From: Patiria pectinifera
Lineage: Eukaryota > Echinodermata > Asteroidea > Valvatida > Asterinidae
Direction: 5' to 3'
Length of the DNA: 64,000 nucleotides
Assembly (NCBI GenBank): GCA_029964075.1
Contig: CM057147.1
Location: 16,513,513 to 16,577,512, forward strand
Part shown: piece after piece, positions 1-49,863 of the stretch
Layout: every line of letters begins with the position of its first letter
How positions within the stretch are numbered: the first letter of the stretch is position 1
Made by a program: the position numbers and the translations under genes
The notes under the pieces: model-generated
The model's input: only the letters and a program-made list of their open reading frames with translations
Told to the model about the DNA's origin: nothing
Database searches by the model: none

Positions 1-1299
1 GAACAAACTCACTGCAGGCAAAAATTAGGAGGCTCCATCAAAATTTATCTGAGTATCTCCCCCATATATCTGCCAGTGACATTGAATTCAAACATCATCT
101 TTTCGCACATTTATTGCAGTTGTCATTCAACTTCACAACAACTATAGTCGGTCCATCTTAATTGTACCATTCAATTATCTAGGCCCTACTCAAAGATCAA
201 TCCAGCACGACCGATTCATTCTCGCCTACGGTATGGTTGGCATTGAGGCCGAGCCTCTTTGAATCACGGGTGCGGAGCCCCACAAACTTCACACGAAACT
301 ACACAGCAACACTGACAAAAATTGGCCCGAAACCAGGGCTATAATTGGAAGATTCTCACCTCGAATTCCATCCATGATAGCATGTTTGCGCATGATGTCC
401 AATACTGTATAAACGCAGGAAAAATCCCGGGACGTCATGAACAGCGTTCAGGCCTGCATATAGACGTGGTTTCACACTGCACTCCCGCGTTTCCGCGGCC
501 AAGCATGCTGTGAACCTCAGCCGGTACCGGATGGACTGAAATCTAGGCGGGGGATTCACCGACCGTACTCCGCCGGTCATAACGTTGCGTACTTCAGTGT
601 TCGTAGACTAACAACAGAACATGATTAACGCACACTAGCTTCACTGATGGACTAATCACGATCTCCAAAACCTCACCAAGAGGTTGAACAAATAACTGAA
701 AGTTCAAGTCAGCTGAAGAAACGCACATGAAGTAAATTAAGTACGATCTGTCCGATGATTTAGCAGACTGCAGTCACCAGGTGTAGGGCCACTCTGGTCA
801 GCGTACGGCATCACGCCCACGGCTGGGCGAAGCATCGAAATGACGAAAAGTTGCGAAAACTCACAAGATCACTGCAGCCAGTTGTATAACAAAAATCCTA
901 TACCATCCCAGAGACAATTCACCAAACGATGTTCAATTATGAACGAAACACCCATGGAAATATAAGCGAAAAACGAAATATTCCGGGAGAAATTTATTTT
1001 TGATGTAGCGGTTTCAAAAAGCTATGCCGAACTGGCCTTTCTTGCCCCAAATGCACTTAGCGCGTCAATGCGCGCGCGTGAACTTAATACATTTGTATCA
1101 ACTCAGCAAAAAGCATCCATCCTTATGCCAAGAACATCGTTTTTGGCTTCATGCCATCAAGGGGCAGCAAACTGCAATTAGGCCAATCGATATGTTTACT
1201 TTTCCTACACCACAGCAACCATCAGCTGATAAAAGAAAGTGTAGAACTCAACTGTGCGTTTGTGGAGAATAATGTATTTTATCTTTCAGTGATAAAATG
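1..1299. other. Intergenic sequence, no gene recognised
   Basis: No reading frame resembles a known protein and no splice-site pair or repeat structure was found. Short open frames on both strands have chance length. The stretch ends where the 318-bp satellite begins. Confidence 0.5.
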
Positions 1300-4200
1300 A
1301 AATTCCGTCGAAATATTAAGGTAAAATCACTCAAAAATTAAAATATTTTTCTCAAAAATTGTTTATTTTTGCCCAAATCTTCAAAATTATGCATGGTAGA
1401 GTATTGTTTGATGTTCCTCTTGCATCCAGATGAATTTCTGCCTTGTTTTGAGAAAAGTCAATTTTTGGCCGATTTTGACTAAAAATGTAAGGCTTACCCC
1501 TTACATTTTTTTCCATTTTGGCCAAAAAATGAAATTTCTTGAAAGTTGCTAGAAAGATGCCTTAAGGGCCCTAGAACGCATTCCCAATCGATTGCTGGAC
1601 AGATATGCTTATCAAGGGAAATTCCGTCGAAATATTAAGGTAAAATCACTCAAAAATTAAAATATTTTTCTCAAAAATTGTTTATTTTTGCCCAAATCTT
1701 CAAAATTATGCATGGTAGAGTATTGTTTGATGTTCCTCTTGCATCCAGATGAATTTCTGCCTTGTTTTGAGAAAAGTCAATTTTTGGCCGATTTTGACTA
1801 AAAATGTAAGGCTTACCCCTTACATTTTTTTCAATTTTGGCCAAAAAATGAAATTTCTTGAAAGTTGCTAGAAAGATGCCTTAAGGGCCCTGAACGCATT
1901 CCCAATCGATTGCTGGACAGATATGCTTATAAAGGGAAATTCCGTCGAAATATTCAGGTAAAATCACTCAGCAATTAAAATATTTTTCTCAAAATTTGTT
2001 TATTTTTGCCCAAATCTTCAAAATTATGCATGGTAGAGTATTGTTTGATGTTCCTCTTGCATCCAGATGAATTTCTGCCTTGTTTTGAGAAAAGTCAATT
2101 TTGGCCGATTTTGACTAAAAATGTCAGGCTTACCCCTTACATTTTTTTCAATTTTGGCCAAAAAATGAAATTTCTTGAAAGTTGCTAGAAAGATGCCTTA
2201 AGGGCCCTAGAACGCATTCCCAATCGATTGCTGGACAGATATGCTTATAAAGGGAAATTCCGTCGAAATATTAAGGTAAAATCACTCAAAAATTAAAATA
2301 TTTTTCTCAAAAATTGTTTATTTTTGTCCAAATCTTCAAAATTATGCATGTTAGAGTATTGTTTGATGTTCCTCTTGCATCCAGATGAATTTCTGCCTTG
2401 TTTGGAGAAAAGTTAATTTTTGGCCGATTTTGATTAAAAATGTAGGCTTACCCCTTACATTTTTTTTCCATTTTGGCCAAAAAATGAAATTTCTTGAAAG
2501 TTGCTAGAAAGATGCCTTAAGGGCCCTAGAACGCATTCCCAATCGATTGCTGGACAGATATGCTAATAAAGGGGAAATTCCGTCGAAATATTAAGGTAAA
2601 ATCACTCAAAAATTAAAATATTTTTCTCAAAAATTGTTTATTTTTGCCCAAATCTTCAAAATTATGCATGGTAGAGTATTGTTTGATGTTCCTCTTGCAT
2701 TAGATGAATTTCTGCCTTGTTTTGAGAAAAGTCAATTTTTGGCCGATTTTGACTAAAAATGTAAGGCTTACCCCTTACATTTTTTTCAATTTTGGCCAAA
2801 AAATGAAATTTCTTGAAAGTTGCTTGAAAGATGCCTTAAGGGCCCTAGAACGCATTCCCAATCGATTGCTGGACAGATATGCTTATAAAGGGAAATTCCA
2901 TCGAAATATTAAGGTAAAATCACTCAAAAATTAAAATATTTTTCTCAAAAATTGTTTATTTTTGCCCAAATCTTCAAAATTATGCATGGTAGAGTATTGT
3001 TTGATGTTCCTCTTGCATCCAGATGAATTTCTGCCTTGTTTTGAGAAAAGTCAATTTTTGGCCGATTTTGACTAAAAATGTAAGGCTTACCCCTTACATT
3101 TTTTTCAATTTTGGAAAAAAAATAAAATTGCTTGAAAGTTGCTAGAAAGATGCCTTAAGGGCCCTGAACGCATTCCCAATCGATTGCTGGACAGATATGC
3201 TTATAAAGGGAAATTCCGTCGAAATATTCAGGTAAAATCACTCAAAAATTAAAATATTTTTCTCAAAAATTGTTTATTTTTGCCCAAATCTTCAAAATTA
3301 TGCATGGTAGAGTATTGTTTGATGTTCCTCTTGCATCCAGATGAATTTCTGCCTTGTTTGGAGAAAAGTCAATTTTTGGCCGATTTTGACTAAAAATGTA
3401 AGGCATTACATTTTTTTTCCATTTTGGCCAAAAAATGAAATTTCTTGAAAGTTGCTAGAAAGATGCCTTAAGGGCCCTAGAACGCATTCCCAATCGATTG
3501 CTGGACAGATATGCTTATAAAGGGAAATTCCGTCGAAATATTAAGGTAAAATCACTCAAAAATTAAAATATTTTTCTCAAAAATTGTTTATTTTTGTCCA
3601 AATCTTCAAAATTATGCATGTTAGAGTATTGTTTGATGTTCCTCTTGCATCCAGATGAATTTCTGCCTTGTTTGGAGAAAAGTCAATTTTTGGCCGATTT
3701 TGATTAAAAATGTAGGCTTACCCCTTACATTTTTTTTCCATTTTGGCCAAAAAATGAAATTTCTTGAAAGTTGCTAGAAAGATGCCTTAAGGGCCCTAGA
3801 ACGCATTCCCAATCGATTGCTGGACAGATATGCTAATAAAGGGGAAATTCCGTCGAAATATTAAGGTAAAATCACTCAAAAATTAAAATATTTTTCTCAA
3901 AAATTGTTTATTTTTGCCCAAATCTTCAAAATTATGCATGGTAGAGTATTGTTTGATGTTCCTCTTGCATTAGATGAATTTCTGCCTTGTTTTGAGAAAA
4001 GTCAATTTTTGGCCGATTTTGACTAAAAATGTAAGGCTTACCCCTTACATTTTTTTTCCATTTTGGCCAAAAAATGAAATTTCTTGAAAGTTGCTAGAAA
4101 GATGCCTTAAGGGCCCTAGAACGCATTCCCAATCGATTGCTGGACAGATATGCTAAAAAAGGGGGAATTCCGTCGAAATATTAAGGTAAAATCACTCAAA

Positions 4201-7200
4201 AATTAAAATATTTTTCTCAAAAATTGTTTATTTTTGCCCAAATCTTCAAAATTATGCATGGTAGAGTATTGTTTGATGTTCCTCTTGCATCCAGATGAAT
4301 TTCTGCCTTGTTTTGAGAAAAGTCAATTTTTGTCCGATTTTGACATAAAATGTAAGGCTTACCCCTTACATTTTTTTCAATTTTGGCCAAAAAATGAAAT
4401 TTCTTGAAAGTTGCTAGAAAGATGCCTTAAGGGCCCTAGAACGCATTCCCAATCGATTGCTGGACAGATATGCTAATAAAGGGGAAATTCCGTCGAAATA
4501 TTAAGGTAAAATCACTCAAAAATTAAAATATTTTTCTCAAAAATTGTTTATTTTTGCCCAAATCTTCAAAATTATGCATGGTAGAGTATTGTTTGATGTT
4601 CCTCTTGCATCCAGATGAATTTCTGCCTTGTTTTGAGAAAAGTCAATTTTTGGCCGATTTTGACTAAAAATGTAAGGCTTACCCCTTACAGTTTTTTCAA
4701 TTTTGGCCAAAAAATGAAATTTCTTGAAAGTTGCTTGAAAGATGCCTTAAGGGCTCTAGAACGCATTCCCAATCGATTGCTGGACAGATATGCTTATAAA
4801 GGGAAATTCCGTCGAAATATTAAGGTAAAATCACTCAAAAATTAAAATATTTTTCTCAAAAATTGTTTATTTTTGCCCAAATCTTCAAAATTATGCATGG
4901 TAGAGTATTGTTTGATGTTCCTCTTGCATCCAGATGAATTTCTGCCTTGTTTTGAGAAAAGTCAATTTTTGGCCGATTTTGAATAAAAATGTAGGCTTAC
5001 CCCTTAGATTTTTTTTTCCATTTTGGCCAAAAAATGAAATTTCTTGAAAGTTGCTAGAAAGATGCCTTAAGGGCCCTAGAACGCATTCCCAATCGATTGC
5101 TGGACAGATATGCTAATAAAGGGGAAATTCCGTCGAAATATTAAGGTAAAATCACTCAAAAATTAAAATATTTTTCTCAAAAATTGTTTATTTTTGCCCA
5201 ACTCTTCAAAATTATGCATGGTAGAGTATTGTTTGATGTTCCTCTCTCATCGAGATGAATTTCTGCCTTGTTTTGAGAAAAGTCAATTTTTGGCCGATTT
5301 TGACTAAAAATGTAAGGCTTACCCCTTACATTTTTTTTCCATTTTGGCCAAAAAATGAAATTTCTTGAAAGTTGCTAGAAAGATGCCTTAAGGGCCCTAG
5401 AAGGCATTCCCAATCGATTGCTGGACAGATATGCTTATAAAGGGAAATTCCGTCGAAATATTAAGGTAAAAGCACTCAAAAATTAAAATATTTTTCTCAA
5501 AAATTGTTTATTTTTGCCCAAATCTTCAAAATTATGCATGGTAGAGTATTGTTTGATGTTCCTCTTGCTCCAGATGAATTTCCGCCTTGTTTTGAGAAAA
5601 GTCAATTTTTGGCCGATTTTGAATAAAAATGTAAGGCTTACCCCTTACATTTTTTTCAATTTTGGCCAAAAAATGAAATTTGTTGAAAGTTGCTTGAAAG
5701 ATGCCTTAAGGGCCCTAGAACGCATTCCCAATCGATTGCTGGACAGATATGCTAAAAAAGGGGGAATTCCGTCGAAATATTAAGGTAAAATCACTCAAAA
5801 ATTAAAATATTTTTCTCAAAAATTGTTTATTTTTGCCCAAATCTTCAAAATTATGCATGGTAGAGTATTGTTTGATGTTTTTCTTGCATCCAGATGAATT
5901 GCTGCCTTGTTTTGAGAAAAGTCAACTTTTGGCCGATTTTGACTAAAAATGTAAGGCTTACCCCTTACATTTTTTTCAATTTTGGCCAAAAAATAAAATT
6001 GCTTTAAAGTTGCTAGAAAGATGCCTTAAGGGCCCTAGAACGCATTTTAAATCGATTTCCTGGACAGATGTGCTATTAAAGGGGGAATTCCGTCGAAAAA
6101 TAAAGGTAAAATCGCTCAAAAATTAATATTTTTCTCAAAAATTGTTTATTTTTGCCCAAATCTTCAAAATTATGCATGTTAGAGTATTGTTTGATGTTCC
6201 TCTTACATCCAGATGAATTTCTGCCTTGTTTGGAGAAAAGTCAATTTGGGCCGATTTTGACTAAAAATGTAAGGCTTACCCCTTACATTTTTTTCAATTT
6301 TGGCCAAAAAATGAAATTTCTTGAAAGTTGCTAGAAAGATGCCTTAAGGGCCCTAGAACGCATTCCCAATCGATTGCTGGACAGATATGCTTATCAAGGG
6401 AAATTCCGTCGAAATATTAAGGTAAAATCACTCAAAAATTAAAATATTTTTCTCAAAAATTGTTTATTTTTGCCCAAATCTTCAAAATTATGCATGGTAG
6501 AGTATTGTTTGATGTTCCTCTTGCATCCAGATGAATTTCTGCCTTGTTTTGAGAAAAGTCAATTTTGGCCGATTTTGACTAAAAATGTAAGGCTTACCCC
6601 TTACATTTTTTTCAATTTTGGCCAAAAAATGAAATTTCTTGAAAGTTGCTAGAAAGATGCCTGAAGGGCCCTAGAACGCATTCCCAATCGATTGCTGGAC
6701 AGATATGCTTATAAAGGGAAATTCCGTCGAAATATTAAGGTAAAATCACTCAAAAATTAAAATATTTTTCTCAAAAATTGTTTATTTTTGCCCAAATCTT
6801 CAAAATTATGCATGTTAGAGTATTGTTTGATGTTCCTCTTGCATCCAGATGAATTTCTGCCTTGTTTTGAGAAAAGTCAATTTGGGCCGATTTTGACTAA
6901 AAATGTAAGGCTTACCCCTTACATTTTTTTCAATTTTGGCCAAAAAATGAAATTTCTTGAAAGTTGCTTGAAAGATGCCTTAAGGGCTCTAGAACGCATT
7001 CCCAATCGATTGCTGGACAGATATGCTTATAAAGGGAAATTCCGTCGAAATATTAAGGTAAAATCACTCAAAAATTAAAATATTTTTCTCAAAAATTGTT
7101 TATTTTTGCCCAAATCTTCAAAATTATGCATGGTAGAGTATTGTTTGATGTTCCTCTTGCATCCAGATGAATTTCTGCCTTGTTTTGAGAAAAGTCAATT

Positions 7201-7574
7201 TTTGGCCGATTTTGACTAAAAATGTAAGGCTTACCCCTTACATTTTTTTCCATTTTGGCCAAAAATGAAATTTCTTGAAAGTTGCTAGAAAGATGCCTTA
7301 AGGGCCCTAGAACGCATTCCAAATCGATTGCTGGACAGATGTGCTATTAAAGGGAAATTCCGTCGAAATATTAAGGTAAAATCACTCAAAAATTAAAATA
7401 TTTTTCTCAAAAATTGTTTATTTTTGCCCAAATCTTCAAAATTATGCATGGTAGAGTATTGTTTGATGTTCCTCTTGCATCCAGATGAATTTCTGCCTTG
7501 TTTTGAGAAAAGTCAATTTTGGCCGATTTTGACTAAAAATGTAAGGCTTACCCTTACATTTTTTTCCATTTTGG
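1300..7574. repeat. ~318-bp AT-rich satellite array, about 20 monomers
   Basis: A monomer beginning near GAAATTCCGTCGAAATATTA recurs every 316-320 bp to the edge of the sequence gap. Each unit carries a short hairpin, AATGTAAGG then CTTAC then CCTTACATT, flanked by A and T runs, plus the landmarks GGGCCCTAGAACGCATTCCC and AATCGATTGCTGGACAG. Diagnostic variants recur every four monomers: TTTTTGTCCA at 2,321 and 3,591, and TTGCATTAGATG near 2,695 and 3,965. Both pairs are 1,270 bp apart, so part of the array is a higher-order repeat. Short translatable frames repeat with the monomer and break at random, so this is not a gene. It could be pericentromeric or a dispersed intergenic satellite. Confidence 0.95.
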
Positions 7575-8074
7575 NNNNNNNNNNNNNNNNNNNNNNNNNN
7601 NNNNNNNNNNNNNNNNNNNNNNNNNNNNNNNNNNNNNNNNNNNNNNNNNNNNNNNNNNNNNNNNNNNNNNNNNNNNNNNNNNNNNNNNNNNNNNNNNNNN
7701 NNNNNNNNNNNNNNNNNNNNNNNNNNNNNNNNNNNNNNNNNNNNNNNNNNNNNNNNNNNNNNNNNNNNNNNNNNNNNNNNNNNNNNNNNNNNNNNNNNNN
7801 NNNNNNNNNNNNNNNNNNNNNNNNNNNNNNNNNNNNNNNNNNNNNNNNNNNNNNNNNNNNNNNNNNNNNNNNNNNNNNNNNNNNNNNNNNNNNNNNNNNN
7901 NNNNNNNNNNNNNNNNNNNNNNNNNNNNNNNNNNNNNNNNNNNNNNNNNNNNNNNNNNNNNNNNNNNNNNNNNNNNNNNNNNNNNNNNNNNNNNNNNNNN
8001 NNNNNNNNNNNNNNNNNNNNNNNNNNNNNNNNNNNNNNNNNNNNNNNNNNNNNNNNNNNNNNNNNNNNNNNNNN
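7575..8074. other. Assembly gap (500 Ns)
   Basis: Exactly 500 unknown bases separate the 318-bp satellite from a different tandem repeat. The round length suggests a placeholder of unknown true size, so either array may be longer than shown. Confidence 0.98.
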
Positions 8075-8810
8075 GGCGAAAGGCTGCAGTTGCAGTTCAA
8101 ACAGACCATTTGGCTCACTTTGCGCAGAAACGATAGCCCTGGTCTACAAAATATCTAAAAAAATTAGTGACGCACCAAATTGAATTCTTGCCAGATGATT
8201 TATCATGATAAATAGACAAACAAGACAGAAGATCTAGACGAAATATTGTTTTTCTCTCCCTCAACAGTGTCTTGTGCAAAACCGGAGAAACACTTGGCGA
8301 AAGGCTGCAGTTGCAGTTCAAACAGACCATTTGGCTCACTTTGCGCAGAAACGATAGCCCTGGTCTACAAAATATCTAAAATATTTAGTAACGCACGAAA
8401 TTGAATTCTTGCCGGATGATTTATCATGATAAATGGACAAAGAAGACAGAAGATTAAGACAAAATATTGTTTTTCTCTCCCTTAACAGTGTCTTGTGTGA
8501 AAACGGGAGAAACACTTGGCGATAGGCTGCAGTTGCAGTCCAAACAGACGCTTTGGCTCACTTTTGCACAGAAACGATAGCCCTGGTCGACAAAATATCT
8601 AAACAATTAAGTGACGCACTAAATTGAATTCTTGCCAGAAGATTTATCATTAAAAATAGACAAACAAGACAGAAGATTTAGAAAAAATAGTTTTTTATTC
8701 TCTCCCTCAACAGTGTCTTGTGTGAAAACCGGAGAAACACTTGGCAATAGACTGCAGTTGCAGGCAGCGGACAGAATTCAATTCAATGCATCACTATTCA
8801 ATTCAAGGCT
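8075..8810. repeat. ~222-bp tandem repeat, about 3.3 copies
   Basis: Copies starting near GGCGAAAGGCTGCAGTTGCA are seen at 8,075, 8,297, 8,519 and (diverged) 8,743. Units share a palindromic TTTATCATGATAAA core and a CTCTCCCTCAACAGTGTCTTG segment. A short inverted piece of the unit (AATCTTCTGTCTTGTTTGTC) lies just beyond at 8,859-8,880, suggesting the array sits inside a larger foldback unit. Confidence 0.85.
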
Positions 8811-8999
8811 AACCCCTTAGGGCAATTTTTTTCAATTGTGGCCAAAACAGTATCTTGTCTCAATCTTCTGTCTTGTTTGTCTATTTTTCAGGACCGATTA
8901 TCCGGCCCCAATTTAATCAATGCATCATTTCATTTTTTTGAGTGAGAGTGTTGATGCGGACTGTGTCGTTTCTGTGCACTGAAAGTAAGGCTACAAGGC

Positions 9000-9290
9000 T
9001 GTTACAACTGATAATACCAACGGATAATGTATCACCAACCAATAATGTCACACAAATTGACCGATACTGTATCACTAACCGATAATGTAACAGAAATTGA
9101 CCGATAGTGTAGTCAATGTTACTACACTATCGGTCAATATTTGTTAAGACCGATAATTTAACAACAATCGACTGATAGTGTAGCACATTTTTACAACACT
9201 ATCGGTCAATTTGTGTGACATTATCGGTTATACAGTATCGGTCAATTTGTGTGACATTATCGGTTGGTGATACATTATCAGTTGTAACAA
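9000..9290. repeat. Imperfect palindromic element with ACCGATAATGTA-like repeats
   Basis: The ends, GTTACAACTGATAAT and ATTATCAGTTGTAAC, are inverted copies. Variants of ACCGATANTGTA and its complement occur many times on both strands in between. No coding sequence. Probably a MITE-like or foldback element. Confidence 0.7.
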
Positions 9291-10489
9291 AGGCAAACGT
9301 TCCGTTTGGACTGTGACAGATTCGCAAGTTGTTCTCCGTGTTGACACAAAACACTTATTGATGGAGAGAAAACCGGATAAACTGAGTGTTTTAACCGTGA
9401 ACAACAATCCGAAAGAGGCAACGTTCAAAACAACAAACCACTCGTTGTTTAGAGCAATAACTTGCGAAATAACAAATGTATTAAACTGAAACTTCGTCGA
9501 ATAATATTTAATGTCTCACGTTCAAACATTAGTATTTGATGAGAATTTAAAAGAAATTACAAACACTTTCCAAAAAAATATTTACGTGTTAAACCTGAAA
9601 ACACATTTCTAATGAATGTCATCGTACATGACAAAAATACTCTGTGGTTCGGGTGATTGAGCAATTTCAGTATTTATTTTTTCATCTAAAAGTAGCTTAT
9701 TATGAAATTGGCTTTCCAGTCATTATTATGTTTGGTGCTACATGTTTTTTTAAATATGAAATATATTTTGGGGGGTTAGGTTCCCCTTTATTTTTTACTC
9801 ACCCTGTATCACAATCAGGAATATATTTTCATGAAAGAAAGAGATTGATATCAAACAACTGAGTGTTTTAAACGTGAAAAATAAAATCGCATGAAAGCAA
9901 TGTTGCATGGCCAAAAAAAGCACACTCCTTTTTGAGCAATGATCTAAGAAATTGCAAAGAATTTCCTTTGTTTCATTCTTTTTTTTACAAGGGCATTTTC
10001 CCAAACACTTTTTTGCAACTACACTTTTCTGTATTTTTTTTCGTACGGAGACAATGCACCAAATGCTTTAATAACACGTACAAAATCCATCTAAAGTAAA
10101 ATCACACCTATATCACAAACTAAAACTTAGCTATTTGTTTTATTGAATTGATATTTTTTTCTAGAGGTTTAGCAGGACTGGCAACACAAACCTTTAAAAT
10201 ATTGAAACAAAATATGGAGATTATCGGCGTCAATATAATTTTTAGTAACACCGACAAAACTGCCAAATTGAAGTCATCACGGTGTCGAGAAAATCGGCCT
10301 CAGAAACAATAACATTCTTGGGTAAGAGTCCTATCAGGAATAGGCATGGGCTCATTGCGATGGCTCATCCGACCCCTAGATGCTTGAACATCAAATAACG
10401 TTTTGTTTTATTCACCATGCTCCAGGCCACTGCGTGTGTCTGTCATCACGCAAGGAGCCAGGTGCGAGTAAGCTGGGGGAAGTAATCGA
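9291..10489. other. AT-rich intergenic sequence
   Basis: No gene, RNA or clear repeat recognised. It lies between the palindromic element and the 147-bp satellite, downstream of the 3' end of ZSWIM7. Confidence 0.45.
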
Positions 10490-12030
10490 ACACACTCAAG
10501 ATGTTTGGTGGCTGTGATGAGGTCGTTCGTTCTAAGTTCTGAATGACCCTGAGGTCACTCTCATCTCATGATCATGAATGGTTCCAATTCGGATTTACTT
10601 GGGGTCAATTTCGCATCATCATGATCATCTGCAATGAGCCCATCATGTTCGATGGCTGTGATGAGGTCGTTCATTCTTAGTTCTGAATGACCCTGAGGTC
10701 ACTCTCATCTCATGATCATGTATGCTTCCAGTTCTGAATGACCTAGGGGTCAATTTCGCATCATCATGATTATCTGTATTGAGCCCATCATGTTCGATGG
10801 CTGTGATGAGGTCGTTCATAATCTTAGTTCTGAATGACCCTGAGGTCACTTTCATCTCATGATCATGTATGGTTCCAGTTCTGAATGACCTAGGGGTCAA
10901 TTTCACATCATCATGATTATCTGTATTGAGCCCATCATGTTTGGTGGCTGTGATGAGGTCATTCATTCTTAGTTCCGCATGACCCTGAGGTCACTCTCAA
11001 CTTATGATCATGTATGGTTCCAGTTCTGAATGACCTAGGGGTCAATTTCGCATCAACATGATTATCTGCAATGAGCCCATCATGTTCGATGGCTGTGATG
11101 TGTTCGTTCATTCTTAGTTCCGCATGACCCTGAGGTCACTCTCATCTCATGCATGATCATGAATGGTTCCAGTTCTGAATGACCTAGGGGTCACATTCGC
11201 ATCATCATGATTATCTGTATTGAGCCCATCATGTTTGGTGGCTGTGATAATTAAGGTCTTTCATTCTTAGTTCTGAATGACCCCGAGGTCACTCTCATCT
11301 CATGATCATGAATGGTTCCAATTCTGATTGACTTAGGGGTCAATTTTGCATCATCATGATTATCTGCAATGAGCCCATCATGTTCGATGGCTGCGATGTG
11401 TTCGTTCATTCTTAGTTCCGCATGACCCTGAGGTCACTCTCATCTCATGCATGATCATGAATGGTTCCAGTTCTGATTGACCTAGGGGTCAATTTCGCAT
11501 CATCATGATTATCTGTATAGAGCCCATCATGTTTGGTGGCTGTGATGAGGCCGTTCATTCTTAGTTCTAAATGACCCTGAGGTCACTCTCATCTCATGAT
11601 CATGTATGGTTCCAGTTCTGAATGACCTAGGGGTCACATTCGCATCATCATGATTATCTGTATAGAGCCCATCATGTTTGGTGGCTGTGATGAGGTCGTT
11701 CATTCTTAGTTCCGAATGACCCTGAGGTCACTCTCATCTCATGCATGATCAGGAATGGTTCCAGTTCTGAATGACCTAGGGGTCACATTCGCATCATCAT
11801 GATTATCTGTATTAAGCCCATCATGTTTGGTGGCTGTGATGAGGTCATTCATTCTTAGTTCTGAATGACCCTGAGGTCACTCTATCTTATCTCAAGATCG
11901 TGTATGGTGCCAGTTCTGAATGACCTAAGGGTCACATTTGCATGGTTGCGATTATCTGCATTGAACCCATCATGTGTGCCGGCTGTGATGAGGTTGTTCG
12001 CCTTCCGGTTCTGAATGACCAGGCGTCAGT
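10490..12030. repeat. ~147-bp satellite array, about 11 units
   Basis: Units of 144-152 bp are marked by GATGGCTGTGATGAGG or GGTGGCTGTGATGAGG near 10,507, 10,651, 10,796, 10,943, 11,088, 11,237, 11,389, 11,534, 11,681, 11,829 and 11,980. Most units contain two everted motifs, TGACCCTGAGGTCA and TGACCTAGGGGTCA. Reverse-strand frames stay open over about two units (10,643-10,966) by low stop density only. The last, diverged unit overlaps the terminal coding exon of ZSWIM7. Confidence 0.93.
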
Positions 12031-12116
12031 GTTTGGGTCATGCGATCATTTGAGACTTGTTGTTCCTGGCAAACTTCCATGGCGCAACTAAGCAGGACCG
12101 CCAAAACATGCTTACA
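11970..12116 (-). CDS. ZSWIM7: ZSWIM7 coding exon 6 (C-terminal, satellite-derived tail)
   Basis: Acceptor CCCTTTTTCTCAG. Encodes CKHVLAVLLS and on to stop TGA at 11,970-11,972. C104-K-H106 completes the SWIM site. The last ~18 codons align base by base with a reverse-complemented 147-bp satellite unit: the shared runs GGTCATTCAGAAC and CCTCATCACAGCC include the region up to the stop. The ordinary family C-terminus ends near residue 134. Confidence 0.85.
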   Translation of the reverse strand, partial: CKHVLAVLLSCAMEVCQEQQVSNDRMTQTLTPGHSEPEGEQPHHSRHT

Positions 12117-15100
12117 CTGAGAAAAAGGGAGGAGACAATAAGGAAGTGATGATCTAATGACTGACATGGCAAATTTGTCAAAAAATCAGCTACTCAGCTG
12201 ACTCAAAAAATTTTTTGATACATACAAAGTCGAACACCTTTATAACAAGGTCCTTGGGACTTACCATACAAACCTACAAATTACCTTGTTATAACAGGTA
12301 CCTTGTAGTAACAGTAATGAAAAACAAAGAAAAACAAAGATTTCAGATCTAAACAGTCACAGACAGTCAAAAAAGCAATCCTCTTGCCTGCCATGCCTTT
12401 TATGCAGGCTAGTCATCAACAGTCAGATCATATTTCAAGCAACCACTGTGACTAGTCAAATTCAGTCGAACGGACAAAAACAGGCAAGTGGTAGGCACAG
12501 CTGGCTTATCAATCACCTACAGTCAAAGCATAGCTGTATAAAGTAACATAAACAGTCACAGAAAGTCAGTCCTGCTTTATGTATACAGCTGGGAGCTCTT
12601 AACTTTTGAAAACAGTCACTTGAATAATAATTTTGACCGAAAGAACTACTTGGCACAGAATGTATGTTTGCATAGTAGGGTTAACAGTGCTCTTCTTATC
12701 AGGGCTTGAATGTACGATATTCATAACAAGTTTCTACCTCAATGTCAATGGATAAATATTTGAATATTCGATCAAACCTGAGTTCCAATAATCGAATATT
12801 ATATTATTCGAAAGGCCCAGCACTAATCCAGTTTACACTCATATAGGAGCACAATGGATTCCAGCTATTTTTCAAATTTTCAGTTTAAGATTTTAAGAGC
12901 AGAGGCTCCTACTGGAACGTTTCACGCATTCCGAATTGGAGACTCCACCTTAAAACTTTCCTTGACGTAAAAATAAGTACTTACCAGATCAACATCATTC
13001 CTCTTCAGAACTATGAAAAAAAATATGCAAACAAACAATATTACTTTAGAAATTTTGGGAAAACTGTCAATGACTACATTGTTTCGCAGTCTTCAACAAA
13101 AGAACCTAAAATTCCTTTTTGGACACCTCAATTGGGCGTCAATCGGTTGGGGACAGGGAGACAAGTCCCCCCCCCCCCCACACTTTTTAAGTGGAGGATA
13201 TCATATCGTTAGTCCCCCTCCCCCAACTTTTTTGTCCCTCTCCAAATGATTATGATTCTACAGCTCAGAATAGCTGATTCAATTACTCAAAAATGTTCAA
13301 ATGATGATCTTTTGCTAAAAAGAAATGGTTAAAGTGGTCAGAAATGGCCTCAAATTGCACCACAGGGCATCTAGAATACAATTTTTTTTCAGCCCCAAGA
13401 CCACACCATTAGGACTTCGCGCTTGCATTAGGCCCCCACTTTTGAAAAGGGATTGTGATGCCCTTGAACACTTCAATACAGGTTACAGACTTGAGTCAAA
13501 AATACCTTCTTGTAGGTTCCTGGCTTAAAATCTCACCTGTGAATGAGTAGTACTGACAGCTACAGAAGTTGGACGATGGGAGGCAAATGTATGGAATGCC
13601 TGAACTTCCAAGAACCTGGTCAAGTTCATGAAAACATATTCACAGCTCACACAATGATTTCAATATTTTTCCCAATTTTGTTAAACAAAATTACACTCAA
13701 CCAAAAATGAAAGTCCCCCCTTAATCCTTTTTTGTCTAACTCAAAAACTACTGGGCACATCTTGCTCAAATTACGACTGATCAGTACAGAAATTCCTTAG
13801 CAATCCAGCCATACTCTTTGTTTGGCCCAAAACAGTAATAATGTGTACAAAATGATGCAATTCATGACAAGAGGTACCGAACAAAAAGTTGCACTTTTGT
13901 ATTCTTGCAACGTGAGTGTGAACCACAACATGCACGTATACAAAAGTGCAACTGTTTTCGGTATGATTTGTCATAAATTGCATCAATTCGTACACATTAT
14001 CACTGCTTTAGGCCAAATAAAGAGTATGGCTGGATTGCTTAGGAATGTCTGTACTGATTAGTCGTTATTTGAGCGAGAGGTGCTCAGTAGTTTTTTTGAG
14101 TTGACAAAAAAGTATTGGAAGGGGGGGACTTTCTTTTTTGGTTGAATGTATTTGATATAAGCAGGATTTGCATGGTATCCTAAGATGGGGGATCTTTCTG
14201 TATTAATTGGCGACGAGGCTTTGCCTCGCCCTCTGATTTGTTTACTTTTGAATAATAATAATAATAATAGTAATAATGTAAATTTCTATAGCGCCGAATC
14301 CATTAACAAATGCTCCATGGCGCATTACAATCAAACTATTTATATAAATAAAAGTGCCGTGGCCTCGTGGATAAGGGCACTGAATTCGTGATCTGTGGGC
14401 AATTCTGCAGGTTGTGGGTTGGAGTCCAGCCAGTGGTTATGGTGCGTGTGCCCTTTGGCAAGGCACTTTGTCACTCATTGCTTCTCTCCACCCAGGAGTA
14501 AATGTGTACCTGTGAGGGCAGAGATGGTTATTGTGATTGAATAAGCTTGCTTGCGCCTAACATGCAGCATCGAGCAGTATACTCCCGAGGGAGCTGAGAT
14601 GGTATTTGGAATGTTTCATTGGTCCAATGATCAGGGGTAATAATAATACTGTAAGCGCTCTGATTTAGTTAACTAATAAGAGCGTTCTTAAATGCCGATT
14701 ATTATTATATTATTATTAGTATTATAAATAAAAGGAATATATATTAAAAAAAAAATGTGATTATGTTGTGACTGTTCAGACAGCAGGAGGGTTAATTACA
14801 GCAAGTACTACATTGTTTCATATGCTCTTGCTATCTTTTCTCAAACTTTAGAAATCTCACCTGGAAAGCTATGCGACCAGCAGGACATGTTATTTTAGTA
14901 ACACTCTTGTTGTCTACAAGGTCTAAGGCCTGCAGAAGGGGAGCCTTGAAGACAAAATGCAAACTGGAAAACAGAAAACAATGCACATTATTAACGACAC
15001 TAACGACACTAAAGCCCTTTTCACACTAGAGCCTCTCAACCCGGGTTGAACTCAACCCTGGGCAAACCTTGTGCTGCCCCAAGTTGATTTTTATATTTTT

Positions 15101-17086
15101 TTTAACCCCGCGTTCAACCCCGCATTGTTTCACACTTGTTTCATGCAAATCAAGCTTATCATGCTCAGTTACTACTGTTTTGAACCCTGGCAAGAATTTC
15201 AACCCGGGTTGAAAATCTCAACCCTGGTCTGGAGCAGGGTTGAGTTCAACCCAGGGCGAAATCAATCTCAGGGTTGATGTGGGGTTGACGCAGGGTTGAA
15301 ATTCTTCAAGTGTGAAACGATGCATGTTTTCAACCCTGCGTCAACCCCAAGATTTGTCTAGTGTGAAAAGGGCTTAACAACTAATGACAGAATTAAGCTA
15401 TTGGTCTTTAACTGATATAAGGTCTTGTGCTTTACCAAGGCTGCATGTTTGAAGTATGGCTCAGTGGTTAGGGTTCGTGACTCATAATCGGAGGGTCAGG
15501 GGTTCGAATACAGGTGCGGTCACATGTTGTGTCCTTGGGCAAGCCACTTCACCCCCACTTGCCTCTCTCCACCCAGGAGTATAAATGGGTACCGGCATTG
15601 GGGAGTAACCTGCGATGGACAGCATCCCATCCAGAGAGAGTAGAAATATTCTCATTCGTTTCATGCCACTGAAACCGGAGATAGACGCCTGCTTGATGGG
15701 CAACATTGGCTCGTGACAGACTTATTTTTTACTCATTTTTACCAAGGAACAAATATTTAAACCAAGTCCAAACAATACTAGGTATGGGTACCATAAGTAT
15801 AAGTAAAAACAAATTACTTTGAATTTTTCATACAACTGACACAGGTTGGCAGTGGCACAGATATACAGTAAAAACATTTCAAATGAAACACTTTAAAACA
15901 TCAAATACTCACGCTGACAAAAGATCCTCTGGCACTGCAAGAATCAAAAGGAAAAAAAAATTAACTTAAGAAAGCTTTTAAAATGGTGATGGTTTATGAG
16001 AGTATTCCCTTGAAGACATTAATTGGTTATTGGGTTTGGTCAATCTAAGAAATTGAATCGATTTGACCAGCATGTGAAAAATGTACCTAAATTCAAATAT
16101 AACGTTGTAGAGTTTCTGCACAGCTTTTCAAACAACTTTTGATCGTTGTCATCTTAAAACAATTTTTTTAATGGCACAATTGTTCCATGAATATATGCGT
16201 ATTTAGGGTACGTAACATTCCCAATCTACAAAAAGGGAAAATTGCATCAGCATTTTTGCAAGTGTCTGTCTCATCATGCGTGTATTCCATGATTGTCTCA
16301 ACAAGGCACAAATTTTTTTCTGGGAATTTTTGCCGCCCAAATAGTATTAGTTTAATTGTACTTTCAGATGACATCTTCCTTACCAGCCCCATAAATGTGG
16401 CTCAAATACTGGACTTCCTCCGTTTTACTGTGAGCCACACAGTGGTGATAGCTACGTGTGAGGAAAAGTTGATCTTAAGGAAATCAAAATTTGGACTGTT
16501 TTTTTTTCACTTGATATTCAATGTGGAAGATATTTACTTGGTTAATAACAAGGTAAATTCAAAAGGTCAAGTGTACATGACCTGCGACCCGGAGCAAAAT
16601 ACTGCTATCTTTTTTGGAAGAACTCACTGCAAACTTTGACTGAAAATTACAGGATAACTGGACACAGGCTACTACAGAAACAGAACTCATTAGGGAAAAA
16701 GTGTTGCAACCTGACGCCACTTCAGCAGTTGTGCACAAAGTCTATGAAGATTCATGTCTTATCATCATTTGTGAAATGACTGACTTTTGGCTTCATTGAG
16801 ATGATCATATGAAGAAAAAAAGTGGTGTCAGGTTGCAACATTTTTTCCCTAAATTTTTCCTGGCGATAACCACGATGTAAGTATCTCTCACTGTGAATAT
16901 CGAGTGAAAAAAAAACAGTCTCAATTTTGATTTCCTCAGAATCAACTTTTTCCCCCAGACTTCCCCAGTATTTGAGCCACATTTATGGTGCTACCGTACT
17001 TCCTTACATGCATGGCTTGTCTGGTAGGCAGTTTTGACATGCTTCAGCAATTCTGTCTGTGTTCTGTCAAGAAGGGCAGATGCCAT
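11970..17086 (-). CDS. ZSWIM7: ZSWIM7 (SWS1), SWIM-domain Shu-complex subunit; 6 coding exons, 151 aa
   Basis: SWS1/ZSWIM7 pairs with a RAD51-paralogue-like partner (SWSAP1) in the nucleus and promotes RAD51-dependent homologous recombination, in meiosis and at replication lesions. Coding exons, minus strand: 17008-17086, 15913-15934, 14861-14963, 13537-13615, 12985-13010, 11970-12116. All introns are GT-AG and the phases join to 456 nt. Visible: an N-terminal helix (MASALLDRTQTELL), the family signature ALDLVDNKSVTKITCPAGR (about 46-64), and the SWIM motif C86-S-C88 ... C104-K-H106, split over three exons. The vertebrate protein is about 140 aa; here residues ~134-151 and the stop come from a satellite unit. 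An acceptor (CATTTAG) just upstream of the ATG implies a non-coding first exon. Identity rests on recognised alignment to vertebrate ZSWIM7, not on a search. Confidence 0.9.
12985..13010 (-). CDS. ZSWIM7: ZSWIM7 coding exon 5 (26-nt micro-exon)
   Basis: Acceptor TTTTCATAG and donor GTAAGT bound 26 nt encoding VLKRNDVDL (95-103), the linker between the two halves of the SWIM motif. It corresponds to the vertebrate V-L-R-K-S-D-S-I-L segment. Confidence 0.82.
13537..13615 (-). CDS. ZSWIM7: ZSWIM7 coding exon 4 (first half of SWIM motif)
   Basis: Encodes VLGSSGIPYICLPSSNFCSC then QYYSFT (residues 69-94), with the C-x-C of the SWIM zinc site at C86 and C88. Acceptor TTGACCAG, donor GTGAGA, phase 1. 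Confidence 0.88.
13694..14148. mobile_element. Full-length palindromic MITE, TA target duplication (Tc1/mariner-like)
   Basis: About 455 bp whose halves are inverted copies. Termini CACTCAACCAAAAA and TTTTTTGGTTGAATG are flanked by TA on both sides. Sits in intron 3 of ZSWIM7. No transposase. Superfamily is inferred from the TA duplication only. Confidence 0.8.
14247..14345 (-). mobile_element. LINE/SINE 3'-end fragment with (AAT)n tail
   Basis: (AAT)n followed by a TATAGCGCC motif resembles the reverse complement of the 3' ends of LINEs and their partner SINEs elsewhere in this window, so a truncated insertion on the minus strand is likely. Confidence 0.45.
14348..14740 (+). mobile_element. 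tRNA-derived SINE, family A, full length
   Basis: The head has a degenerate A box (TGGCCTCGTGGATAAGGG) and B box (GGTTGGAGTCC). It is followed by the body motif GCTTCTCTCCACCCAGGAGT, shared with the copies at 15,449 and 32,560, and an ATT-rich tail. Lies in intron 3 of ZSWIM7. Confidence 0.75.
14861..14963 (-). CDS. ZSWIM7: ZSWIM7 coding exon 3
   Basis: Acceptor TCTGTTTTCCAG, donor GTGAGA. Encodes LHFVFKAPLLQ followed by the conserved ALDLVD signature and the CPAGRIAFQ strand (residues 35-68). The phase-2 entry matches exon 2. Confidence 0.88.
15013..15374. mobile_element. MITE with AGCCCTTTTCACACT termini, TAA duplication (Harbinger-like)
   Basis: Terminal inverted repeats AGCCCTTTTCACACTAG and CTAGTGTGAAAAGGGCT are flanked by TAA on both sides. 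The interior is an inverted set of CAACCCNGGGTTGA-type repeats. TAA duplications fit PIF/Harbinger. Non-coding; in intron 2 of ZSWIM7. Confidence 0.8.
15449..15720 (+). mobile_element. tRNA-derived SINE, family A
   Basis: Near-perfect A box (TGGCTCAGTGGTTAGGG) and B box (GGGTTCGAATAC), then CTTGGGCAAGCCACTTCACC and CCACCCAGGAGTATAAATGG. A Pol III promoter head with a SINE body. Confidence 0.85.
15913..15934 (-). CDS. ZSWIM7: ZSWIM7 coding exon 2 (22-nt micro-exon)
   Basis: Acceptor TTCTTGCAG and donor GTGAGT bound 22 nt encoding LPEDLLSA across both junctions. This matches the vertebrate P-D-E-Y-L-L-S segment. It enters in phase 1 and leaves in phase 2, consistent with exons 1 and 3. Confidence 0.8.
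16390..16989. mobile_element. ~600-bp foldback element interrupted by a nested MITE
   Basis: ATAAATGTGGCTCAAATACT near 16,392 is inverted as AGTATTTGAGCCACATTTAT near 16,968. A further inner stretch (GATATTCAATGTGGAAGATA against its mirror at 16,880-16,905) extends the pairing. A second MITE (16,690-16,853) lies inside. In intron 1 of ZSWIM7. Confidence 0.7.
16690..16853. mobile_element. MITE, GTTGCAACCTGACGCC family (nested copy)
   Basis: TIRs TTAGGGAAAAAGTG + TTGCAACCTGACGCC and their inverted match. The same family occurs at 19,763, 48,581 and 61,261. This copy is in the opposite orientation. Confidence 0.8.
17008..17086 (-). CDS. ZSWIM7: ZSWIM7 coding exon 1 (start codon)
   Basis: Starts with ATG at 17,086 and encodes residues 1-26, MASALLDRTQTELLKHVK onward. 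Donor GTAAGG in phase 1. The ATG lies 9 nt inside the exon, after acceptor CATTTAG. Confidence 0.85.
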
Positions 17087-23004: not shown

Positions 23005-23324
23005 ACTTTGTACATATTGTACAAAATGGGAGGATGAAAATGTGAAAAATGAAAGGAAAAAAATGTGGTCAGAGAGAGACTGAAGACTCTACTGCTGACC
23101 TGGGTCAAAGTTCAAAGGTCGGGTCACATCAGAACATCCCAGAAGGTCAACCTAATCAGAGAACCACTGCTAGAAAGAAAGCTTTGCAAAGATGTGAATG
23201 TTTGCATCCCAGTCATGCTCCATTCGCAGTGATCTCTCCATCCAGTCAAACTCTGATTCCTTCTGCCCGATGCTTTCGTTGTATATATAGAGCATGTATC
23301 CAGCGACTGGTACCCGACCATGCC

Positions 23325-23388
23325 TCAGTGCTTTAGGTAGCTATGGATATAGCGGTCCAGCTCGCTGTCCAGCCAACCAGCCTTGTTC
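23325..23388 (-). CDS. MFN: Mitofusin coding exon 17 (C-terminus and stop)
   Basis: After acceptor TTCTCCAACAG it encodes (R)[20 protein letters not shown] and then TGA (23,325-23,327). It corresponds to the conserved C-terminus beginning N-K-A-G-W-L-D in vertebrate mitofusins. Confidence 0.95.
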
Positions 23389-26300
23389 CTGTTGGAGAAA
23401 AAAAAAGGGAATGCATTGCAACTTGGACCAACTCAACTGCTTGTCAAACACAAACAAAATCAATGACCAAGAGAAATTAAAATGTACTCGCTGTGGGAAC
23501 AGCAGAAAGTCCCCATAACTCGGTCCTAATTTGCCTAAGAATAAAAATTTCCCCATAAGGCCAAAAAAAAAAAAGTCTCCGGTTTCTGGTATGCGCGCGC
23601 GTCGCCGTAGCCATGCGCGTCGGCAAAATGAAAAAGTTTTTTTTCAATGAAAGATGATGTCTCAAAACCGCCAAACTCACTGGTTTGACTGGAATCCTGC
23701 TGCTGCACAATTTTAACGTGTTTTAAGATGGGGTTATGATCGAGAATAAGCTTTATGTGGCCTCTCTGGACTCCCATATATTTGCACTAAGTTTAGTCGG
23801 GCACCATTTGCAGTCATCAGCCGACATTTGAAGCCAAAAAAAAAAAGGTAAAAAAAAAAAAAAGCCGCGTCGCCGCACCACTTTTTGGGCAAACTCCATA
23901 CCAGAAACCGGAGACTTTTTTGGGGGGGGGCCTAACGCTGTGACGGCCTGCCCACAGGGTTCCCACAGAAATCTCAAAATGAAATTCCAGGACTATTCCA
24001 GGACTTTTCCAGAACAAACTCATAGGCTTCCCGTGACCAATTCCTATGCTGTTTTGACATCTTAAGAGCCAATACACTGGCTCATCACACTGAGGCAAGG
24101 GGCGCCACTCCCTTTCAGGCATCTACGGCCAACTTCGCGCAAGGACTATAGTTGACCAATGGTTAACTAACGTTTGCCCGAACTCTGTCTAGTCGACGGT
24201 GGTTGACTACGCTAGTCGACTATTTGGAACCAGCCTACTGGGGTTGGTTGCTTCGCTGGTAACCAATAGCCGCGCGTATTCATAACGCTAGCAGAGAGCC
24301 AGGATCCAGAAGTTTTGCGATGACATTTTGACCAGCGTTTGACTAGAGACGTTCGCACGTTGCTATCAGTGCGCAGGCGTAAGGTACGTCACAAATCAAC
24401 CACTAGTCGACTAATGGTCCTTGCCCGAACTTGGCCCATTTTGACGCAAGACCACTGAGAGCCACAAAGCCATCGCAATGGTGCAATAAACATGCAACAC
24501 GTACAAAGCAAACTGGCAGACTGCCATGCACATCATTACATTCCATGACTTTTTTTTCTAGGCTTTCGATGACAGCTTTAAATTTTTGGATTTTCCAGGA
24601 TTTTTCCATTACTGTTTGAACCCTGATATATGGGCTACTCTTCCATCAAATTTACATGATGATGATTTCTCATGTAGAAGGCTATTTCTACAAACCTAAG
24701 GACTTTGGCCCTGGACATCATGCCTTCCAGTTTCTGGCTCTCGTCCTCCATCTTGATCAGCTCTTTCTTCAAGTCGTTGGTGTGGTTGTCCACCTCCAGG
24801 CAAAGGCGGGCAAAAGTAGTAGACAGCTCCCTGGGAATGAGAACAGATGAGGTGAAGAGGTCACAAGGGGTCACTGAAATGCTTTTCCAAATGCTTGAAT
24901 TAAGATAAAGAATAATAGGGAACATTTGTATCCGCCTAAAAAGGCGCTCATGGCGCTTGAGCAGAAAGTCAAGTTAGGATAGTGTGTTGTGAGAGAAAGG
25001 TGAGATTTTATGTTTGTCTTAAATGTTGTGATGGATGGAGATGATTTGATAGCCAGAGGGAGTTGGCTCCACACTCGGGTTGACGCTGCAGTAAAGGATC
25101 TGTCACCCCAAAGAGTGGAGGTCCTGGGCTCGTGAAGCATCAAGAGCTCACTGGAGCGGAGTCCGGTGCGTGCGGTTGAGTACAGGTGGATGAGGTCGAT
25201 GAGGTCTCTTTTCAAACTTCCAAAAATTCACCCTAAGGCCAAAAAAAAAGTCTTTGGTTTCTGGTATGCGCACGCGTCGCCGTAGCCATGCGCGTCGGCA
25301 AAGTGAAAACGTTTTTTTTTCAATGAAAGATGATGTCTCAAAACCGCCAAATTCACTGGTTTATCTGGAATCCTGCTGCTGCACAATTTTAATGCATTTT
25401 AGATTGGGTTATGATCGAGAATAAGCTTTATGTGGCTTCTCTGGACTTCCATGTATTTGCACTAAGTCTAGTCGGGCACCATTTGCAGTCATCAGCCGAC
25501 ATTTGAGGCAAAAAAATCAGGTGAAAAAAAAAAAAAAAGCCACGTCGCCGCACCACTTTTTGGGCAAGCTCCATACCAGAAACCGGAGACATATTTTTTT
25601 TGGCCTCAAGGTATGTAGGATCATTTGCTCTTTATGCCTTTTGTTCGTTTCCTATAATAAAACCACTCAAAATCCAACCAAGAATGTTCATAACCTATCC
25701 TGATAAAGTTTCAGAACAGTGGATACTACAATTCAAGTAAACAGTGAAAACTAATGCTCAACATTTTGATCACGAAACACGATCTTTGTCGAAAGCACTC
25801 TTTCTTTCCAAAGCTCAGGGCAACTGACTGATCAATTGAAATCAACGACACTTCTCGATGTCTTCAAAATGACAGCAAGCCAGATGGAATAATGTCATGG
25901 GGTTATTAGTACCAGTATGAATTTAATCGTACTATGGTGAAAGAACTTGTGACCAATTTGGGCGTTTCCCAATGCAGCGCGCCACCAAGAGTTTGCCACG
26001 GAGAATTCAATTTTCCCTGTGCATTGTGGGAGATGGTGGACAAATTCGCAGCGCAGGACATTTGAAATTGTTCGTTTTTCCGGTCAGAAGTTTTGTAAGC
26101 GTATGATTCCAGTATCTGTTTGCCCTTTTCTTTTCTTGTTATCAATGTGGTGTTTTTTTGTACGGTCAGAAGGTATATGCCCCAATTCATAACGAATTAG
26201 CTCAAGTTGTCTACTGACACTCATTCAAATGAGCCATGTTTTGTCGACCATTAACTTTGAAAATGGACTCTCCATGGCAAACTCTTGGTGGCGCACTGCA

Positions 26301-29300
26301 TTGTGAATCCCCCGAATTTTCAAACGAATATTTTCAAGTGCGAAAAAATGTATAGCAGCAATGGTACTCAAGGGTCCTTTCATTTTTTACAGCCAAAGTT
26401 ATGCACAGGCTTATATTGTGACATAAGTTTCACTCCTACTTACTGCTGAATCTGGTGGCTCAGGTTGGAGCCAGTGAAGTTGACCAGCAGTTTCAGCTTC
26501 TCCGACGCGTACTGCACAAACTGCTGCTTGAATGCCCTCTCCTTGGCCTTATTGGTCCAGGTCAGTCGCTCGTAGACGTACAGTAGGGAGTAAAGACCGC
26601 CCCCTACTGCCAAGACTCGCCAACCCACGGCCTTCCAAACCTTGGTAGGGAGGGACACAATCAAACTTAGAATCAAACTTTGCCAAAACTGTGGCATTTG
26701 TGTCACTTCTCTGATCTGCAACTTGATTTTTTTTTATGTTGTCTCTTTCCTAACTAGCTTTGTAGTTAAATAGATTTATTAAAAAGAGAATGAAATAAAC
26801 CTTAAAACTGGGCTATTTTGCACTTTTGTGAGAATTTCATTATTTGAAATATGAAGACCTTTTTTTCTACAAGTGTGATTTATTTTAAACAAACAAGCTT
26901 TGAAAAATGAAAACGTGCAAGGGTTAACCAAATTTTCTAACCAAATTCAATTAGGGAATGTATGTACAAACGATCTATTAAAAAAACCCAACTATTCCAA
27001 AGTTTGAAAACTCGGAAATTGTTTTTAACCTTAATTAATTCTGTTGCTAAAAGCTAATGACATTTAAATGAAAATGTGCTCTGTTTAGACACAATCTCTA
27101 AAATTTGAAATTTCCTTTTGGTATTGCTTGGTCAACAAATTAGGAAAACACTCACAATGCCGATAACAATCATCAGCCCCATGGATGTGCGAGACGTCAA
27201 CGATGCCAATCCCGTTACCACGGCAACCGTCATGTCCTCCTGGCTTCGGGACCCACATTCTGCTCCAGCAGTTGCCAAGGGACGAGGAATCTACAATGAT
27301 AATCATATGTAAAGAAAATATGAAGAAAACAAAATTGGAGAAGTGAGTCAGGTTTTTTTTTTTTGTTGCTGTTTAGAGTTTCTCTTGTAATTTTCATTTA
27401 TACAATGAAATTAAAAGTAACTTCTGTTGTAAAGGAATTATACATTAATTCATAAATACCTGAGACAGTTTACCAATTCCTATTGGTCGAATGCCCGTCA
27501 CATGGGTGGTTTTAAACCATCATTCATAAATACCTAAAGACAGTTTACCAATTCCTATTGGTCGAATGCCCGTCACCTGGGTGGTTTTAAACCACCATTC
27601 ATAAATACCTAAAGACAGTTCACCAATTCTTATTGGTCAATTGTTTATACAGCGGGGAACAAACAAATTTTACTTACCACATTGGCAAAGCCAGCCATAG
27701 CCACCCTCGTGTTCTTGGGTCCCAGGAAACGATTCATAAGCGCCGTGAAGCCCAGCGAGAACCGAAACTCCACGTTCTCAGAGAAGTCGGCAAAGAGGTG
27801 CTGGCACTCCAGCCGGTAGCTGGGGCCAAAGTCCCGCCGGAAGAGCAGACGACTGAACTGGTCCTTGGCTTCGTCAGGGAGGAGGGCCGACATGTGCTCT
27901 AGAATGTTTTTAAAAAAATAGGATTTTTGTCTTCTTTTCTGGCTTCTGCCTCATCTTTTGTGACTGAATCATTAAGAAGCTGTTTAAGTTGCATTCCCCG
28001 TGCTATTTTTGAGGTTTTATCCCACAAACTACTTTTCTTAATTGCGATTTGTTTTCTTCTGCAATTCAAAAGTTATTGAATGAGACATCAACCGAAAAAA
28101 TCAGCCATGTTTAGTAATTGAATTATTACTTCAATTCAATTCTCACAGGGTAGGCTGGTCCCTGCCCCACAATCAGTATTGATAATGTAAGAATCAGGAG
28201 CCAGTCTGCTCCTGGATTTGTTTGTGCCTAAAACCAAAACACTTTTTTTTAGAAGGTTGCAGAGGTAAAAAAAAAAAAAGGGGGGAAAAAGGAGGGTTTT
28301 TTGGAATAATTTAAGCGGAAATGTATTAATATATAACAATGGACTTTATTGAAGAGCAGGGGGAATGCAACTTCAATGTTTAAACCATGCTGAAATACTT
28401 AAATGTTGGAATCATTATGGAATTTGATGTCCCTGAAGTAGAATGCGGACCCACATTTTGCTACATTATAGAGCTCCATGAAATTGGGTCAAGGTTAGTG
28501 TTGTGCAAACCCAAACCAAAACCGACCCAACCCGACCCGAAACCGACTTCAGGTCGGGTCAGGTCAGTTTGTCCATCATTTCAATCGGGTCAGGTTGGTT
28601 TCAATATTACGTGTGTGATTTTCGGGTCGGTCGGGCTGTTTATGCCATTTTTAAAAAAAATATGAAATAATTCCCAATAAATCCCAATAAAAAAAAAAGG
28701 AAACAGTTCGGAAATTCAGAGTCACTGTGCCCGGTACGACAAAATGTGGTTTGCAAGTTTAAGTTATCACGCATGGTCTACAACATGCAGGCCCACCAGT
28801 ACGTCAAATTGTGAGTGCCGTACAGTATGATTCAGCTACTTAGAGATTTTCACGTGACGCGGGTAAGTTTAGGCACAAAAAGCAGACACAGTTGCCTCAG
28901 CCAGATATTTGGTTTTGTTCGGGTCGGTTTCAGGTCGATTCGTATTGGTTTTCTATTGAATTTTTGTTGGGTCGGTTAGTGTCGGTATTAGGGAGTTCAG
29001 ATCGGTTTTGGTTCAGATTGGGTGTATATCTACAATGTTTCGGGTCGGTTTGGCCTGGCCAACCCGCCACACGATGCACAACACCAGTCTAGGTGATTAC
29101 AAACTTTATAATCACTTAGCAGTCTGGTGCTGGCTGCCAAGCAGAAAATCTGTGCCACGCAAAAGTGAGCTTGGAACACATCACAAGAAGACATGCATGT
29201 ACACTGAATGATATTTTGCTGAGTAAATTTACGCCCTGCAAAAGGAAACACCAGCTGATGAGAACCGTGGATTGAGATGTGCCCACCTGTCATCTGTTCT

Positions 29301-49335: not shown

Positions 49336-49863
49336 ACTTTAAACGGTAATTTTTTATGAAAAAAATTAGGCAAAATAAACAAACATTAGGGACTTTCCTT
49401 TTCAAAACTGATCATGGCTTTTGTTCTACAATAATTAATATAATTTCATATGGTTACCAAAATTGCCAATAAAAAAAACAGGCCAAAAATAGCTGAAATG
49501 TATGCGCGGTACCCTGACGACATTGAATAGTAACACTCAACATCTTTTCATGGGCACCAGACCTGTGAGTGACTCATCACACTCGACGGGGAAATACCGT
49601 CTGACATGTCTGAAATGGTGCTGACTGCTGTACTTCAAAATGCCACATTTCCACCTAAACTAATAATAATATAACCCTCAAAAACGCAGACACTTGTTTT
49701 GAGTATTTTCGATCCAACTTACAACTATTTGATAGAAGTCGGGACCCCGCCGTTCAGATGTCGATAATTCGTGATTTCATGCCGAAGAAAGAAACGTGAA
49801 CCTGGCCGCGTATTCGGCCAGATACCCCAGCCGCGTATTCAGCCGTGTATTCAGCCGCGTATT

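Follow-up and report, generated by a model that had tools for sequence, protein, structure and literature searches.

VNTRs occur in the 3'UTRs of ordinary genes, the dopamine transporter gene being one example. The locus described here, from the sea star Patiria pectinifera, is like them in having repeats in the last exon and a copy number that differs (10 and 6 units), whereas the first repeat unit is here predicted to be coding. On a larger scale, satellite families are hypothesised to start as a duplication at one place, according to a review (PMC5615363). Measured against the birth stage described there, our locus is alike in its single location, its short array and a monomer that would derive from a further internal duplication, and differs in that the last codons of a gene are shared with the repeat, the array lies in a predicted 3'UTR and no spread was found. 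A further related class is that of the de novo C-termini of Andreatta et al. 2015 (PMC4494051), a set defined by stop loss against a sister species. The likeness lies in a short, weakly constrained protein end that shares 3'UTR sequence; the main text of that article does not contain the word "tandem". Both kinds of event are already on record (PMC5615363, PMC4494051). Literature queries on gene-derived satellites and on stop-codon minisatellites in general returned nothing on the subject.

Predicted gene and tandem array

The window, that is, the whole stretch of 64,000 nucleotides analysed (positions 16,513,513 to 16,577,512 of contig CM057147.1, forward strand), carries on its minus strand a predicted gene of six exons and 151 residues with a SWIM zinc finger, which, from similarity along the protein, we take to be of the ZSWIM7/SWS1 type (ZSWIM7-like, presumably of the DNA-repair type). 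The joined predicted protein matched PF04434 (SWIM) with an E value of 3.2e-6 and 27 bits, the cut-off being 19.6, and contains the CxC...CxH arrangement of this finger. A PDB search with the last exon gave no match, and one with the longer protein gave a single match at chance level (E 0.92, an unrelated protein). The gene was predicted from DNA alone, with exon 1 picked by frame and phase. The last exon and the array behind it recur once, 29 kb upstream and inverted, with the frame intact; the 26-residue translation of exon 1 is identical in this second copy. The features of the locus are as follows, in window positions.

17008-17086, minus strand: predicted coding exon 1 (MASALLDRTQTELLKHVKTAYQTSHA), a candidate frame that ends at a GT donor
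15913-15934, minus strand: predicted coding exon 2, with AG/GT borders and identical sequence in both copies
14861-14963, minus strand: predicted coding exon 3, with AG/GT borders, ungapped in both copies
13537-13615, minus strand: predicted coding exon 4, with the first two Cys of the SWIM zinc finger (PF04434 on the joined protein)
12985-13010, minus strand: predicted coding exon 5, with AG/GT borders and identical sequence in both copies
11970-12116, minus strand: last coding exon, from the zinc-finger CKH to the stop TGA (11972-11970), equal in length and frame in both copies
11970-12020, minus strand: repeat-homologous tail (E), the last 16 codons and the stop, a candidate founder-type single-motif unit (score against shuffles; diagnostic columns)
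10501-11971, minus strand: tandem array of 10 units of 144-149 bp in the predicted 3'UTR, each unit with half-motifs B and A
10495-10507, minus strand: distal array edge CAAACAT/CTTGAG, in the same phase as in the exon tail, with an identical edge in the second copy
10407-10412, minus strand: AATAAA poly(A) signal, the first after the stop; the second copy has one too
7575-8074, no strand: assembly gap of 500 N that joins two contigs; an inverted match starts right behind it (8075)

Similar units lie head to tail in both copies, with 10 complete units in the window array and 6 in the second array, and with a mean identity between units of 0.906 and 0.938, respectively, and of 0.921 between the arrays. 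As only 10 and 6 complete units are present, "minisatellite" is a better name than the "satellite" of the sequence-only reading. That reading had also given the monomer as 147 bp, and here the tandem monomer was recovered with a length that ranges over 144-149 bp. Along the arrays, B is followed by A after 51-55 bp, and the next unit comes 93-98 bp later. In unit 10 of the window array the B motif is degenerate and escaped the pattern, so that one spacing is 144; with this exception, no unit with a single motif was observed within the arrays. An inverted TGACC...GGTCA core is kept in both half-motifs (window 10501-11971), and we take it to resemble everted nuclear-receptor half-sites. A 743-nt part of the array gave a better RNA fold than any of 20 shuffles (z = -2.67).

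The array sits between the stop codon and the first AATAAA, and the stop itself spans the junction, the T of its TGA closing the tail and the GA opening the first unit. The distance from stop to AATAAA is 1560 nt and 964 nt in the two copies, with no AATAAA or ATTAAA in between in either of them; one AGTAAA lies inside the window array. At the other end of the array, past the distal edge, the frame of the tail reaches a TGA one codon on (ACA TCT TGA), and in the window copy the AATAAA lies 83 nt past this distal TGA and 88 nt past the array.

Other features were observed in the window. Upstream of the ZSWIM7-like gene, and on its strand, open frames at about 23300-35000 (minus strand) appear to resemble mitofusin. 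A 318-bp tandem repeat (1292-7574; 19.7 copies, 96 percent matches) lies directly before the assembly gap. A 391-bp array (49828-51616) and a 384-bp array (53226-55793) appear, by eye, to belong to the same family and to run in opposite directions; each carries a 12-bp repeat at its outer end.

Exon tail, repeat homology and constraint

The terminal 49 nt of the last exon (12020-11972, minus strand) aligned to the adjacent array with a score of 28, while their reverse complement scored 9 and dinucleotide shuffles reached a maximum of 16 (0 of 1000 attained 28). The tail of the second copy behaved in the same manner, with a score of 34, a shuffle maximum of 17 and a score of 8 for the reverse complement. 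The homology of the gene end to the adjacent repeat, on which the sequence-only reading was built, is thus borne out, and the three words that it quoted as common to tail and repeat (GGTCATTCAGAAC, CCTCATCACAGCC and ACATGATGG) all recur, with 12, 7 and 9 occurrences in the window array and 7, 3 and 4 in the second array. As the 96 nt of the last exon that precede the tail scored at the level of shuffles (9, equalled by 735 of 1000), the boundary of repeat homology at 12020 is sharp. The extent of the homology had been put at about 18 codons, and this has to be adjusted to 16 codons and the stop, plus a further short match, TGAC-CCT, that extends it back to about 12031. ZSWIM7 family homology presumably ends just before the tail, judging from human ZSWIM7.

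No signal was found beyond TGAC-CCT, where 0.47 (B) and 0.23 (A) of 20000 genomic controls were at least as good. When these bases were included in an anchored extension test (n=3996), the fraction was 0.005 against B and 0.38 against A, with the gain sitting in the TGAC-CCT bases. The possibility that repeat homology extends into the conserved part of the exon was also considered over the whole length and rejected, the fractions being 0.03-0.06 for genomic controls and 0.14-0.20 for shuffles against B, and 0.09-0.17 and 0.56-0.70, respectively, against A.

When the two copies were compared, 7 of the 108 codons compared in the body of the gene had changed, 1 of them nonsynonymously and 6 synonymously, and the 16 codons of the tail had 3 nonsynonymous changes and no synonymous one (one-sided p 0.033 against the body, on few changes); exon 1 was compared at protein level only. 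In nucleotides, 7 of 324 positions of the body and 4 of 51 of the tail, stop included, had changed (p 0.048). The body looks as if it were kept by selection, and the tail, within these small numbers, shows no such sign.

Second copy and distribution of the repeat in the assembly

Comparison of 16388001-16513512 with 16513513-16647512 revealed a long inverted match, interrupted by several large unmatched stretches and about 91 percent identical in blocks of more than 500 bases; the blocks amount to 59 kb, and a few small ones are non-collinear. In this way positions 8075-64000 of the window pair with 16448558-16500964 of the same scaffold; the blocks are inverted and collinear, at about 91 percent, and large stretches between them are unmatched. 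The match starts at 16521587 and its partner ends at 16423782; both positions come immediately after a 500-N gap, the gap in the window in the first case and a different one in the second. The remaining two ends lie within contigs. As one end of each copy falls exactly at an assembly gap, the second copy is probably the other allele, and most of the window probably represents the second allele of the sequence that lies upstream of it. Overlapping contigs of two alleles laid side by side in scaffolding would give such an inverted match, and extra copies of this type are a known assembly error (PMC7203741). The two copies may instead be a true duplication, since a further contig, which begins at 16619564 behind a 500-N gap, again resembles the same region (16423934-16451745, with 81-93 percent in most blocks, up to 16647512). 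This contig (C19:16619564-16647512) is a third copy of part of the region. Alleles or duplication alike, the second copy provides a natural replicate of the first: the two lie on different contigs and agree in gene frame, tail, stop, array and poly(A) signal.

The 613-Mb, 1020-contig assembly was scanned with three patterns, each drawn from another part of the monomer and allowing 1, 3 and 3 mismatches, respectively; the patterns count units more than once. All of their matches (22/22, 14/14 and 15/15) fell inside two arrays, each of which lies directly behind a copy of the last exon; one of these 51 matches overlaps the exon/array junction of the second copy. The reversed patterns, used as controls, had no match in the assembly. 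The monomer, used as query in a DNA search, found 18 matches, corresponding to 16 units and 2 exon tails, a number that may be a lower bound given that this search skips common words, and a search with the exon peptide gave two, one per array. Within this assembly the repeat is private to the locus, with two arrays at this gene only in place of the many copies at several loci of an abundant satellite. As 51/51 pattern matches are confined to these arrays, no genome-wide satellite "invaded" the gene. A dispersed satellite as the source is rejected, because in this assembly the patterns and the monomer search match only this locus.

Origin of the tail and the repeat

Columns diagnostic of A and B were taken from an alignment with 16 A and 16 B units, in which unit 10 has its B row shifted out of register. 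At all 4 of the columns where the tail has a letter, that letter is the B state, and for 2 of them this is contingent on where a neighbouring indel is placed (the gap was set by hand, upstream as in MAFFT); at the fifth column the tail has a gap. At two further columns the letter of the tail is absent from most A and B units, and downstream its sequence continues as A. Since B on the left and A on the right is the arrangement expected of the ancestor of a 51-bp duplication, the tail would be the single-motif form that preceded this internal duplication, and a founder-type unit is favoured over a recent overrun. A recombination between B and A that deleted 51 bp would likewise yield a single-motif tail.

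The phylogeny of the terminal unit against the array, proposed as a check in the sequence-only reading, grouped the two tails in one clade with a support of 100 and attached them beside a distal-edge unit with a support of only 44, too low to fix the root. Distances from tail to A units were 0.16-0.34 (smallest 0.161), those among A units had a mean of 0.076 and a maximum of 0.175, so that the ranges overlap, and the A units nearest to the tails are at or next to the distal edge. The tail clade and its distances from the A units make a recent overrun of the tail by the present array unlikely.

For the 37 bases at the start of the unit, ahead of TGAC, the exon contained no relative (a fraction of 0.47 of the 20000 controls was as good), and the whole unit had none in the window at 8075-10495 and 12021-35000 (best E 4.4). 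Because these 37 bases are without a relative in the exon or nearby, plain duplication of exon sequence alone cannot make the unit, and part of it must come from the old 3'UTR or from a source now lost.

We give a slightly better than even chance to a common descent of the exon 3' end and the array from one local sequence, with the gene end as founder of the repeat. The direction from gene end to repeat is favoured, not proven, since the repeat was found only at this locus and the exon tail has the single-motif arrangement expected before the two-motif monomer. A short segment, made of the last codons and the sequence just after them, would have been tandemly duplicated in place, and one half-motif would have been duplicated again (51 bp), resulting in the present monomer of B and A. 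Unequal exchange may then have altered the copy number to 10 units in one copy and 6 in the other, and the exon tail, lying outside the homogenised array, would have retained the older single-motif form. The stop codon would have formed across the junction of the founder tail and the first unit, and the predicted 3'UTR would have lengthened from an estimated 0.1 kb or so to 1.0-1.6 kb. We infer from the sequence that the tail already encoded protein when the repeat was born, that the duplications took place in this order and that the array is transcribed. The more specific proposal that the coding end itself seeded the repeat in place, leaving founder codons, a split stop and, 1.5 kb downstream, the former end with its TGA and poly(A) signal, is one we hold tentatively, at somewhat less than an even chance. 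Of the two routes offered in the sequence-only reading, an origin of the satellite from the gene end is therefore the favoured one, although the spread that it added comes down to local tandem expansion; replacement of the terminus by an existing satellite loses support, as no source array was found elsewhere in the assembly and the tail does not copy any unit of today's array.

It is possible, but rather unlikely in our judgement, that the repeat was born in the 3'UTR and that a frameshift or a lost stop made translation run into its first unit, which would have replaced or extended the terminus. Such a stop loss would agree with the coincidence between the boundary of repeat homology and the apparent end of constraint (nonsynonymous to synonymous changes of 1:6 in the body and 3:0 in the tail, p 0.033). 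However, the tail observed departs from a normal A unit, being B-like at 4/4 alignable diagnostic columns; moreover, the distal edge ends in the same frame with a TGA of its own, as if the tail had once directly preceded the unique 3'UTR. A satellite that already existed elsewhere and was inserted behind or into the gene, for instance through circular DNA or a mobile element, could supply the 37-bp part of the unit that has no local relative and no known source, but the absence of any match outside the two loci in the assembled sequence makes this improbable. Less probable still is that the tail is untranslated owing to a further splice, or that the arrangement is an assembly artefact. Against both stands the agreement of the two copies, on different contigs, in frame, stop, array and poly(A) signal, and against the splice also the fact that only 1 of the 7 GT sites of the last exon is donor-like by eye and lies in its first bases (TGTAAG), the zinc-finger CKH being located in this same exon.

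Once a repeat family has spread and its units have become alike, its starting point should no longer be easy to recognise. Being the end of a gene, the probable founder unit at this locus has stayed fixed in its position, and the order of the steps can be inferred from the two copies, which have diverged. The locus shows how a protein C-terminus and a repeat can have a common origin and, if relatives confirm the direction, it would be a small, datable case of the birth of a repeat from, or into, coding sequence.
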